From: an uncultured Desulfobulbaceae bacterium
Lineage (GTDB): Bacteria > Desulfobacterota > Desulfobulbia > Desulfobulbales > CALZHT01
Reading direction: 5' to 3'
Assembly: GCA_945787445.1 (NCBI GenBank)
Contig: CALZHT010000023.1
Span: forward strand, 1-63,804
DNA length: 63,804 bases
A program made the translations under genes and the position numbers. Position 1 is the first letter of the stretch; each line of letters opens with the position of its first letter. The notes beneath the pieces were generated by a model, which searched no databases, was not told the DNA's origin, and saw only the letters and a list, made by a program, of their open reading frames with translations. Below, piece after piece: positions 49,794-58,459 of the stretch.

Positions 49794-51680
49794 ATGCTTG
49801 ATCTTTTACGCAGAAAGGCGCAATCGCCATATCTGCAAGCAACAGTAATTATAATTATCCTTGTCTTCGTGTTTTGGGGTGTTGGGGTCAATCGCGGCAC
49901 CAGTCCGAATATTGTGGCCAAGGTCAATGATGACATTGTTTCCTATGAAGAATATCAAAGAGCCTACGACAGGCTCTATAATCAGCTTCGGGACCAGTTC
50001 GGCGGCAATGTGCCGGACGCATTGGTTAAAAACCTGAATATGAAAAATCAGGTCGTGGATCAGCTGGTCCAACAGGTCTTGCTCAAGCAGGGGGCCATGG
50101 ACATGGGAATACGGGTAAGCGATGACGAACTGCGTCAAAAGATACAGGAAATGGAGGCCTTCAGGAATAATGAGGCCTTTGATGTGGGTTTGTATCGCGA
50201 AATCCTCACCAGTTCCAGGATTACACCAACGGACTTTGAAAGCGGAGTAAAGACGGATCTCCTTTCCGGAAAAGTCCTTGACCATTTTTCCAGATTCGTG
50301 AAGGTTGGGCCTTCGGAGCTTAAAGAACGCTTTGCTTTTGATAACGAGGAGTATCAGTTTGATTACGCAGTTTTAAATGCATCGGAGTATGAAAAGAAGG
50401 TACAATTCTCCGATAAAGATATTGATACGTTTTTTGATGAAAACAAGGATAATTATCAAACACAACCTCAATATAAACTCAAATATGTTTCCTTCCCTTT
50501 TGCAGAGATTTCGACTGAAGACCTTACAGATGATGAAATTAAGGATTACTACCAGAAAAATATTACCAGGTACCTTATTCCTGAAGAGCGCAGAGCAAGA
50601 CATATTCTGTTAAAAAGCGGTCCAGGAGATGCAGATGAGCAGGTGGCGGAAAAAAGAAAGAAAGCGGAAGAAATCCTTGCCAAAATAAAGAAGGGGGAGG
50701 ATTTTGCTGAACTTGCCAAAAAACATTCAGAAGACACCTCAGCAAAAAAAGGAGGGGACCTGGGTTTCTTTTCCAGGGGCCAGATGGTCAAGCCCTTTGA
50801 GGATGCTGTCTTTTCTTTGCAACAGGGGGAAGTCAGCGATATCGTGAACACTTCTTTTGGATTTCATTTAATCAAGCTCGAAGAAATTACACCCGCATCC
50901 ACACGGCCTCTGGACAAAGTCCGCAAGGGCATCGAGAATCAGTTGGTCAAGGAACAGGGCAAGAACATTGCCTTAAAAAAAGCGAATCAAGCCTATGAAA
51001 AAATTATCCTGGCCGGAAGTATTGATAAATATGGCGAAGCAGGAGAGACTGAGATTAAAGAGACGGATTACTTCGCGCAAGAATCCCCCCCGAAAGCGCT
51101 GGCAAACGATCCGGTCTTCGTCAAAACCGCCTTCTTATTGCGTAAAGGCGAACTCAGTTCCCTGGCGCAAACGGGCAAGGGCTATGTGATCATATACGTG
51201 GCAGATGAAAAAGAACCGCAAATTCCTGCGCTTGCTGAGGTGAAGAAGCGGGTTGAAGAGGATTATCGGCAGGAACAATCGATACAGATGGCTAAAGAGC
51301 GGGCCGAGCAGCTATTGGCAGACCTTAAAGATGGCGCCTCTTTTCAAGAGAAAGCCAAAAAGATTGGATCTACAGTCAAAAAGACCGGATTTATTTCACG
51401 AAGGTCTCTTGGTTCAACGGATCTGCCAGTGCCGATATTTGAAAACGCTTTTACCCTAACGTCTGAGCAGCCTTTTCCGGAAGAGATCGGGGCGAGCGGT
51501 GAAGCCTTCTATGTTTATGCTTTTGCGGAAAAGAAAGATCCTGATCCAAAGCTTTTTGATGAAAAACAAGCAGAATACAAAGAGCAGATCATGCAGGAAA
51601 ACAAGACGGCATTGCTAGATTCCTGGATCAGGCAAATGCGGCAGCGGGCCGAGATAACTATTAACCAGCAGTTTTTATAG
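49794..51680 (+). CDS. ppiD: PpiD-like membrane-anchored periplasmic peptidyl-prolyl isomerase
   Basis: 628 residues. A short cytoplasmic start (MLDLLRRKAQSPYLQ), one span (ATVIIIILVFVFWGVGV), then the SurA_N/PpiD chaperone domain (IVAKVNDDIVSYEEYQRAYD), a parvulin domain about 265-360 (RRARHILLKS, AELAKKHSEDTSAKKGGDLG, GQMVKPFEDAVFSL, GFHLIKLEEI) and a second, degenerate rotamase-like region further on. It assists folding of outer-membrane and secreted proteins at the periplasmic face. AAGGGAGA precedes the ATG. Length matches PpiD (about 620). Confidence 0.92.
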   Translation: MLDLLRRKAQSPYLQATVIIIILVFVFWGVGVNRGTSPNIVAKVNDDIVSYEEYQRAYDRLYNQLRDQFGGNVPDALVKNLNMKNQVVDQLVQQVLLKQGAMDMGIRVSDDELRQKIQEMEAFRNNEAFDVGLYREILTSSRITPTDFESGVKTDLLSGKVLDHFSRFVKVGPSELKERFAFDNEEYQFDYAVLNASEYEKKVQFSDKDIDTFFDENKDNYQTQPQYKLKYVSFPFAEISTEDLTDDEIKDYYQKNITRYLIPEERRARHILLKSGPGDADEQVAEKRKKAEEILAKIKKGEDFAELAKKHSEDTSAKKGGDLGFFSRGQMVKPFEDAVFSLQQGEVSDIVNTSFGFHLIKLEEITPASTRPLDKVRKGIENQLVKEQGKNIALKKANQAYEKIILAGSIDKYGEAGETEIKETDYFAQESPPKALANDPVFVKTAFLLRKGELSSLAQTGKGYVIIYVADEKEPQIPALAEVKKRVEEDYRQEQSIQMAKERAEQLLADLKDGASFQEKAKKIGSTVKKTGFISRRSLGSTDLPVPIFENAFTLTSEQPFPEEIGASGEAFYVYAFAEKKDPDPKLFDEKQAEYKEQIMQENKTALLDSWIRQMRQRAEITINQQFL

Positions 51681-56435: not shown

Positions 56436-56870
56436 TTAGGGTGGCCTGATTAGTTTGTTTACAATTAAGCCAAAAAAACTACCCTCCTTTACCGATTGAT
56501 AGTGCCACCCTAGGTGGACACGGCAATTGGCGCAAATGGCAAATCTCCAATTGAAACCAGGAAACCAAGTAAATTCATAAGTCGGTTTTCCATAAACAGT
56601 ACATCCTTGAGCTATAGCAAAACAGCCAATATTATAAATAATACCCTCTGGATTATAGTATGTGTGGCCATGTTTTCCTTTAACTTCAATTGTCTCGGGT
56701 TCAGATGTAATTTCGTGTTGGCAGTATCTGCAGAGAATCAGCCAGGATTTTTCAGTTTCCCCTTCACGATTATCAAGATCCTTTAGGGTTTGATCGATCC
56801 TTTTGTTGTTTAAGCTTTTTAGGAAGTAAGGTGGCGAGGATTGCTGGTGTGTTTGGGAGTAAGTAAACAC
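56436..56870 (-). CDS. Single-domain CULT (cereblon-like, thalidomide-binding fold) protein
   Basis: 144 residues from a GTG. After a polar N-terminus the CULT domain spans about 44-140: zinc ligands C47-x2-C50 and C113-x2-C116; YYNPEGIIYNIGCFAIAQGC; and the tri-tryptophan pocket W102 (EFTWFPG), W108 (FNWRFA) and W122 (HLGWHY), ending SFFGLIVNKL. Every aromatic-cage and zinc position of the family is present. In cereblon this cage binds thalidomide-type ligands and C-terminal cyclic imides; in bacteria the domain occurs alone and its natural ligand is not settled. There is no signal peptide, so it is cytosolic. It stands alone with its own promoter; neighbours give no functional hint. Confidence 0.87.
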   Translation of the reverse strand: MFTYSQTHQQSSPPYFLKSLNNKRIDQTLKDLDNREGETEKSWLILCRYCQHEITSEPETIEVKGKHGHTYYNPEGIIYNIGCFAIAQGCTVYGKPTYEFTWFPGFNWRFAICANCRVHLGWHYQSVKEGSFFGLIVNKLIRPP

Positions 56871-57094: not shown

Positions 57095-57544
57095 TCAGGT
57101 ACTGGCAACTACTTTGGAGCTCTCTACTTTTGCTTTTTGGGGACCTGCCACAACGCTGAGCTTTTGCTCACAGGAATGAATTTCACCATTCAAGCTTGCG
57201 CCGGACTCAACAGTAAGATCTGTGGTTTCGAGTCTGCCATTGACTTTGGTCGGCTTTTTAGCATAGAATTTTTCAGCCTTTATATTCCCTTTTACATCTC
57301 CCTGACAAATAACGGTTCCAGAAATTATGTCACCTTCAATGGTCGCAGTTTCACTGAGGATCAGGTATTCACCTTTGATATTACCCTCGATTTTGCCGTC
57401 AATGCGTGCTTTCCCTTTAAAGGTAATGTCACCGACAATGGTCATCCCTTGATCAATGATACTTGAGATGGCCTCTTTATCGGTGGATTTTGAGACTGGC
57501 TGGTCAATTCCAATTCCATCTTCGTCTTTTTTGAAGAGACTCAT
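57095..57544 (-). CDS. Bactofilin
   Basis: 149 residues. The central DUF583 beta-helix has repeating hydrophobic/glycine steps: GMTIVGDITFKGKARIDGKI-EGNIKGEYLILSETATIEGD, then VICQGDVKGNIKAEKFYA. Polar tails flank it. Bactofilins polymerise without nucleotide into filaments on the inner membrane and place cell-wall enzymes. GAGGGTGA precedes the ATG, and the gene lies 6 bases after an M23 peptidase gene in one unit, the pairing known from cell-shape systems. Confidence 0.93.
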   Translation of the reverse strand: MSLFKKDEDGIGIDQPVSKSTDKEAISSIIDQGMTIVGDITFKGKARIDGKIEGNIKGEYLILSETATIEGDIISGTVICQGDVKGNIKAEKFYAKKPTKVNGRLETTDLTVESGASLNGEIHSCEQKLSVVAGPQKAKVESSKVVAST

Positions 57545-57550
57545 ACTGTT

Positions 57551-58459
57551 TCACCCTCTTTTGTGTTTATCCGTTTTGTTTGCTGCCATTGATTTTTTTA
57601 ACAGTCTGCCGATATTCATAAATTTATAAGGATTTATCACTTTGTTTTTATGGATCAGTTCGTAATGGACATGGGGACCGGTACTTCTGCCGCTGCTGCC
57701 GAGAAGGGCAACCACCTGTCCTCTGGTAATTTTTTGGCCTCTTTTAACCAGAATTTTTTTCAAATGGCCGAATTTTGTCTTGAAGCCATTTTGATGGTTA
57801 ATTACTAGGTACCACCCGTATCCATTGTTATAACCGCGTTGAGACACCACGCCATCGGCCGTTGCTTTTATCTTGGTGCCTCTTTTACCTCGAATATCAA
57901 CACCCTCATGGAATGCCGGTTTTTTCTTTAAGGGATCAATTCGCCTGCCGAATTTGGATGAGATAGATCCGGCGACCGGGACTCCTAAAGGTATGGACTG
58001 GATGGTTTCAACATAGCGTCCAGCCTTAAATAAAAGATCATCATGGTTTTGATTGTCAAGGCTCGTATAGGGTCCACCGCTGTGGTCAGGACTTTCCTTT
58101 GTTTTTATGTCAACACCTACAGTTGTGAGAATCGATTCAATTAGTTTGCTCTTTTGATTCAGTTCGCTTACCGCATCGTTGAGCAATGCTTCCTTTTCTT
58201 GGTTAAGAGCAACTAACTGTTCTTCAAGGCCAAGATTTTTGCTGTGCGTCTGGGATAAATCTTTTTCCAAGGTTACAACCGTTGTTCTCATTTTGGCACT
58301 TTTAAACATGTAATTTATACAGGTAAGGCTCATGATAGTGAGCACAAGCAAAAAAGCACAAGTACATTGGAGGGTGAGAATAAAATTCTTTTTTATAAAG
58401 ACAAAGGATTTAGGCTGTCCTTCTTCACTCGTGATAATAATATGGAGCTTTTTATCCAT
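57551..58459 (-). CDS. M23 (LytM-type) peptidoglycan endopeptidase with membrane anchor and coiled coil
   Basis: 302 residues. One N-terminal span (about 24-48, FILTLQCTCAFLLVLTIMSL), a coiled coil about 58-110 and the M23 domain about 175-285 with zinc motif H-E-G-V-D (FHEGVDIRGKRGTKIKATAD), GHLKKILVKRGQKITRGQVV and HVHYE. All catalytic His and Asp are present, so it should cleave peptide cross-links. Immediate coupling with bactofilin suggests a shape or curvature role like Csd1/CcmA. The start ATG at 58459 follows an AT-rich region. Confidence 0.92.
   Translation of the reverse strand: MDKKLHIIITSEEGQPKSFVFIKKNFILTLQCTCAFLLVLTIMSLTCINYMFKSAKMRTTVVTLEKDLSQTHSKNLGLEEQLVALNQEKEALLNDAVSELNQKSKLIESILTTVGVDIKTKESPDHSGGPYTSLDNQNHDDLLFKAGRYVETIQSIPLGVPVAGSISSKFGRRIDPLKKKPAFHEGVDIRGKRGTKIKATADGVVSQRGYNNGYGWYLVINHQNGFKTKFGHLKKILVKRGQKITRGQVVALLGSSGRSTGPHVHYELIHKNKVINPYKFMNIGRLLKKSMAANKTDKHKRG

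Follow-up and report, generated by a model that had tools for sequence, protein, structure and literature searches.

A bacterial CULT-domain protein from an uncultured Desulfobulbaceae genome and the conserved N-terminal motif of its relatives

Thalidomide-type drugs and degraders act on the pocket of the CULT domain, the thalidomide-binding domain of cereblon, and what purpose this domain served ancestrally is a standing question. A family of bacterial proteins that consist of a single CULT domain, found mainly in delta-proteobacteria, has been known since 2015 (PMC4287342), and the member used for crystal structures is MsCI4 ('cereblon isoform 4', MGR_0879) of Magnetospirillum gryphiswaldense, which binds both thalidomide and uridine in a pocket that folds upon ligand binding (PMC4449219). 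Human cereblon recognises C-terminal cyclic imides, which arise through the action of PCMT1 on C-terminal Asn or from backbone cleavage (PMC11974815), and its N-terminal extension lies folded along the binding site, with which it is proposed to fold (PMC4449219). Cyclised imide protein ends and uridine-like molecules are the candidate ligands in this literature, with which the sequence-only reading of the DNA described here agrees in regarding the natural ligand of the bacterial proteins as unsettled (PMC4449219, PMC4287342, PMC11974815).

We report the analysis of a CULT gene in a window of 63,804 nucleotides (the whole stretch of DNA that was analysed) from an uncultured Desulfobulbaceae bacterium. 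The gene occupies exactly positions 56436-56870 and encodes 144 residues, as first proposed, to which we add the strand, left unstated at the time: it lies on the minus strand, and the plus strand of the same interval contains stops. Its 144 codons run from a GTG at 56870 to a stop at 56436-56438, within a frame that is open over 153 codons from stop to stop. This start is plausible, if unproven, since the GTG is the sole ATG, GTG or TTG in the first 66 codons of the reading frame, so that no ATG is available, and no clear Shine-Dalgarno site precedes it. The gene is the only CULT copy in the source genome. The suggestion that it has its own promoter is not borne out, as the region holds 6 promoter-like sites against 3.4 ± 1.5 in shuffled sequences; one minus-strand site of this kind lies upstream of the gene (56952-56924). 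No terminator-like site was found, and a bactofilin gene ends 224 nt upstream on the same strand.

The encoded protein is a single-domain member of the CULT family and the resemblance is not due to chance, for the sequence search, the invariant residues, the AlphaFold model and the Foldseek comparison all agree. A phmmer search against the sequences of the PDB, in which bacterial single-domain CULT proteins dominate the matches, finds MsCI4 with an E-value of 2.1e-26 and human cereblon with one of about 5e-13. The domain spans residues 44-144 (56439-56741, minus strand), which AlphaFold, with a model made from 51 sequences, predicts at a pLDDT above 92. Foldseek places MsCI4-ligand complexes first (with thalidomide, with deoxyuridine, 4v31, and with glutarimides) and cereblon next, with TM-scores of 0.86-0.93 over the target and an rmsd of 1.0-2.0 Å, and the top matches are all MsCI4 or cereblon. 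Both the phmmer search and the predicted fold uphold the original assignment to CULT.

The residues that define the domain are all present where they were first placed. Two CxxC motifs supply the zinc ligands C47 (56730-56732) and C50 (56721-56723), C113 (56532-56534) and C116 (56523-56525), and the cage is formed by W102 (56565-56567), W108 (56547-56549) and W122 (56505-56507), which correspond to W380, W386 and W400 of the human protein, W102 being placed also by the MsCI4 alignment; all are encoded on the minus strand. Each of the seven is retained in 195 of 195 relatives sharing less than 95% identity. The protein has one further tryptophan, W43. Among the other pocket residues, N73 and P74 are invariant in the same set, F100 is phenylalanine in 167 of the 195 and the position of Y124 is occupied by F or Y in every one, so that the pocket as a whole (N73, P74, F100, W102, W108, W122 and Y124) is conserved or mostly conservatively replaced. 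Such conservation of the cysteines, the tryptophans and their neighbours indicates that the pocket is under strong constraint.

Relatives are numerous. We found CULT in 124 of the 258 genomes of the window's order and in 39 of 395 genomes drawn from across the phylum, using an alignment as the query, which was needed because a scan of the genome contigs with a single sequence found nothing. A single-motif scan of GTDB 220 gave at least 375 encoding stretches from several phyla; the 80 of these kept for taxonomy include Desulfobacterota, Nitrospirota, Acidobacteria, Spirochaetes, SAR324, Aminicenantes and Gammaproteobacteria. No CULT relatives were found among viral contigs, phages and plasmids, and accordingly nothing points to an origin of the gene in phages or plasmids. 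A quick tree, in which few forks are resolved, places the window protein together with a single member of its own family, with that of one other genome of the order and with an acidobacterial sequence, and, because the remaining families of the order fall elsewhere, simple vertical descent is undemonstrated. The function is evidently dispensable, since half of the order is without CULT. Nearly all other genomes of the order that have the gene carry one copy, whereas one (G618) has three, on contigs C309, C301 and C283, some of which may be foreign because that genome shows 7% contamination. A further CULT-like protein (L215, genome G132) is very divergent, with a branch length above 4 and a different N-terminus, and its function may differ. 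The sequence-only reading had presented the window protein as a good case for finding the ancestral role; with hundreds of members and a description dating from 2015 (PMC4287342), this copy has no such special claim. It is an ordinary member of a known family, and its interest lies in the conserved N-terminal arm.

The first 43 residues form an arm that was absent from the sequence-only reading and that qualifies any description of the protein as 'entirely' single-domain. It carries the motif YFLK (residues Y15-F16-L17-K18, 56817-56828, minus strand), which begins 32 residues ahead of C47, the first of the zinc cysteines, and is followed by a low-confidence charged linker (residues 19-43, 56742-56816, minus strand). 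In the family the motif takes the form of two or three hydrophobic residues and then Arg or Lys; the residues of the linker that follows are poorly conserved and acidic, with a family mean of 26% D/E. A first, unbiased motif search gave likelihoods only slightly above those of shuffled sequences and picked up mainly the acidic linker, and it is a targeted test on held-out sequences and a test of spacing that settle the reality of the motif. In the former, the strict motif was present in 21 of 46 sequences less than 70% identical to the discovery set, against a mean of 3.4 and a maximum of 10 in 1000 shuffles. In the latter, made on 76 sequences of less than 60% identity with distances counted from the first zinc cysteine, a relaxed motif was found in the interval from -38 to -25 in 54 cases, and in control intervals of equal width in 2 and 11. 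The distance from the start of the motif to that cysteine has a median of 32 residues (interquartile range 31-34), and the motif is conserved at near-constant spacing in most bacterial relatives. In many of these the CULT gene lies against a cobA-hemD fusion (uroporphyrinogen-III methyltransferase/synthase), and an artefact of that overlap was considered as an origin of the motif and rejected: in the sequences lacking that neighbour the motif occurs in 23 of 36, against 4.8 (maximum 13) in shuffles, and of 46 cases there are 45 in which the stop codon of hemD precedes the motif. We found no description of this element in the literature searched, the coverage of which was incomplete.

The neighbours of the gene in the window, a convergent serS downstream and genes for a bactofilin and an M23 peptidase upstream, say nothing of its function; the last two are adjacent on the minus strand at 57095-58459. 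A survey of 129 non-redundant loci, of the kind that had been suggested, shows cobA-hemD as a recurrent neighbour in relatives; the close relatives of the window protein have different neighbours again. Genes for proteases or repair enzymes are not repeatedly found beside CULT. Three such cases were each seen once and for that reason carry little weight: in a MAG of a spirochaete, CULT overlaps the 3' part of pcm (protein-L-isoaspartate O-methyltransferase, PCMT, PF01135; L082:9229-10327), the type of enzyme that forms the cyclic-imide degron of cereblon in humans, in an Aminicenantes MAG genes for TldD and a TldE/PmbA-type metallopeptidase lie directly upstream (L113:3134-6554), and in an acidobacterial MAG the C-terminus of a ClpA/ClpB-type protein converges on the CULT gene (L072:2957-3809). 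Separately, a SurA/PpiD-like peptidyl-prolyl isomerase is encoded at 49794-51680 of the window, on the opposite strand and about 5 kb from CULT; in 28 of the 129 loci a member of this family is found a few genes away from CULT, possibly as a remnant of an old synteny.

The reading that we favour, tentatively and at a little short of an even chance, is that of a cytoplasmic, zinc-pinned CULT reader of C-terminal cyclic imides with a ligand-coupled N-terminal arm. The three-tryptophan cage of the beta-tent would bind a ring presenting a -CO-NH-CO- edge, the likeliest physiological ligand being a C-terminal aspartimide or glutarimide on aged, cleaved or PCMT-modified proteins. If the protein behaves as MsCI4 and human cereblon do, binding would fold the pocket hairpin, and the hydrophobic-basic arm on its acidic linker might report or use the ligand-bound state. 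It might do so by packing on the CULT domain, as the extension at the N-terminus of human cereblon does, or by binding a partner, for instance an AAA+ protease or a chaperone. The whole would amount to a minimal reader of damaged protein ends. Consistent with this are the match to MsCI4 in sequence and fold, the conservation of the pocket, the recognition of imides by human cereblon, the overlap with pcm in the spirochaete locus, the tightly spaced motif of the arm, the folding extension of human cereblon and the presence of ClpX and Lon-sized proteins in the source genome. Counting against it are the absence of a recurring protease or repair neighbour and the dispensability of the function. 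The necessary chemistry is available, as 257 of the 258 genomes of the order, the source genome included, have a match to the PCMT family; being near-universal, it does not discriminate between readings, and co-occurrence with PCMT was rejected as a useful test of function. We infer the class of the ligand in bacteria from the close relatives, and what the arm does and what binding leads to are inferences as well; the likeness of the arm to the human extension is an analogy, not a demonstrated homology. In both AlphaFold runs the arm is unstructured and of low confidence (residues 1-43, pLDDT 58-68), a state compatible both with a docking peptide and with an arm that becomes ordered only when ligand is bound, and the predictions give no support for a specific docking of the arm.

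Cyclic-imide ends are not the sole candidate for the ligand, because MsCI4 also binds uridine. The protein might instead sense or buffer a free metabolite with an imide edge, such as uridine or uracil, deoxyuridine, dihydrouracil or hydantoin, for instance in the metabolism of pyrimidines or of nucleic-acid damage. The affinity of MsCI4 for uridine is comparable to that for thalidomide (PMC4449219), a deoxyuridine complex has been solved (4v31), and the high conservation of the cage has been argued to indicate a widespread ligand (PMC4287342). The authors of the MsCI4 work, however, found no biological context for the binding of uridine (PMC4449219), no pyrimidine gene family is prominent among the recurrent neighbours in the 129 neighbourhoods, and the abundance of uracil and uridine would, at a modest affinity, be expected to keep the pocket always filled. 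On balance we consider a metabolite sensor unlikely, if still worth weighing.

The arm itself suggests a second alternative, in which the motif is an adaptor tail that docks to ClpX, Lon or ClpA and delivers imide-tagged proteins, making the protein a bacterial counterpart of cereblon in its ligase role. The architecture, a substrate-binding domain followed through an acidic linker to a short conserved hydrophobic-basic peptide, has the appearance of such an adaptor, the source genome encodes ClpX and four Lon-sized proteins with LON domains, and the ClpA/ClpB-type and TldD/TldE genes noted above point in the same direction. Against this, an intramolecular arm would account at least as well for the near-constant length of the linker, the neighbouring genes are single cases and the likeness to adaptors of the SspB type is a general one; the adaptor function is again rather improbable. 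The four Lon-sized genes have open frames of 788-847 aa on contigs C81, C5, C82 and C28, and the copy on C81 is close to clpX. A 'split cereblon' with a separate LON-domain partner was also sought in the source genome and rejected, the frames there being only of Lon-protease size.

The survey is the source of a third alternative, a role in tetrapyrrole (sirohaem/haem) metabolism through control of HemD/CobA, say, or through the binding of an imide from tetrapyrrole breakdown. In 56 of the 129 loci (among them L067, L073, L076, L089, L092 and L138-L212) CULT is the gene directly downstream of the cobA-hemD fusion, shares its strand and in many cases overlaps it, with hemC or adk further upstream, and the haem enzyme UROD is a substrate of human cereblon. 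Yet the window's order is the only one in which this arrangement was observed, and there it sits inside a larger syntenic block with unrelated conserved neighbours (a SNF2 helicase, PpiD and homoserine dehydrogenase), and it is absent from the window, whose genome has cobA-hemD on another contig, and from the other phyla examined. Plain synteny explains these facts, and we take the adjacency to be mainly a matter of lineage, which leaves a tetrapyrrole role a distinctly poor prospect. Long open frames that contain CULT (L046, 601 aa) were considered as fusions of the domain and set aside, CULT being in frame there with the end of cobA-hemD.

A zinc protein of the Yippee/Mis18 or MsrB kind that does not recognise imides is very improbable indeed, for the Pfam Yippee-Mis18 match (PF03226) that would suggest it is weak (18.2 bits, E 0.0028) and below the curated gathering cut-off of 26.6 bits, the CULT-specific HLGW, NP and WFxGxxW motifs are complete alongside the cage, and every one of the closest solved structures is of cereblon or of MsCI4. 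With a match below its cut-off, Pfam alone would leave the protein unnamed; it found no other domain in the 144 residues, and NCBIfam gave no match.

Returning to the imide reader with its arm, a more general proposal is that the bacterial CULT proteins are two-part receptors, an imide-binding domain joined to an arm of fixed spacing through which ligand binding is coupled to a partner protein; this partner would probably be a protease or a chaperone. We offer this as a rather unlikely speculation; if true, the function of cereblon in reading a cyclised end and handing the protein over for degradation would predate the eukaryotic ubiquitin system. Most bacterial members share an N-terminal element that is missing from the protein used for the crystal structures, and, should the arm be important for function, the bacterial model in present use is a protein without it, and the natural ligand and the partner would be better sought with a full member. 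The conserved arm could in this way help to reveal what the bacterial CULT proteins do.

Comparison with the known systems places the window protein closest to MsCI4, with which it shares the single CULT domain, the two CxxC motifs and the three-tryptophan cage, and whose further pocket residues align with its F100, Y124 and N73-P74. The two differ at the N-terminus, where about 23 residues precede the first zinc cysteine of MsCI4 (residue 44 of the window protein aligns with chain residue 21) against 46 here, too few for MsCI4 to carry a motif that lies 31-34 residues upstream in most relatives. Human cereblon has the domain, cage and zinc site in common with the window protein, which is without its LON domain, DDB1-binding region and ubiquitin ligase context and has Phe100 at the position of human His378. 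The Yippee/Mis18 proteins have a related beta-tent fold with two CxxC motifs, and the window protein belongs with CULT instead. The C-terminal tail of SspB tethers that adaptor to ClpX, and SspB and other adaptors of AAA+ proteases resemble the window protein only in how they may work, through a binding domain, an acidic linker and a short hydrophobic-basic peptide; they have no homology to it, and in the window protein the peptide is N-terminal and the length of the linker nearly fixed.
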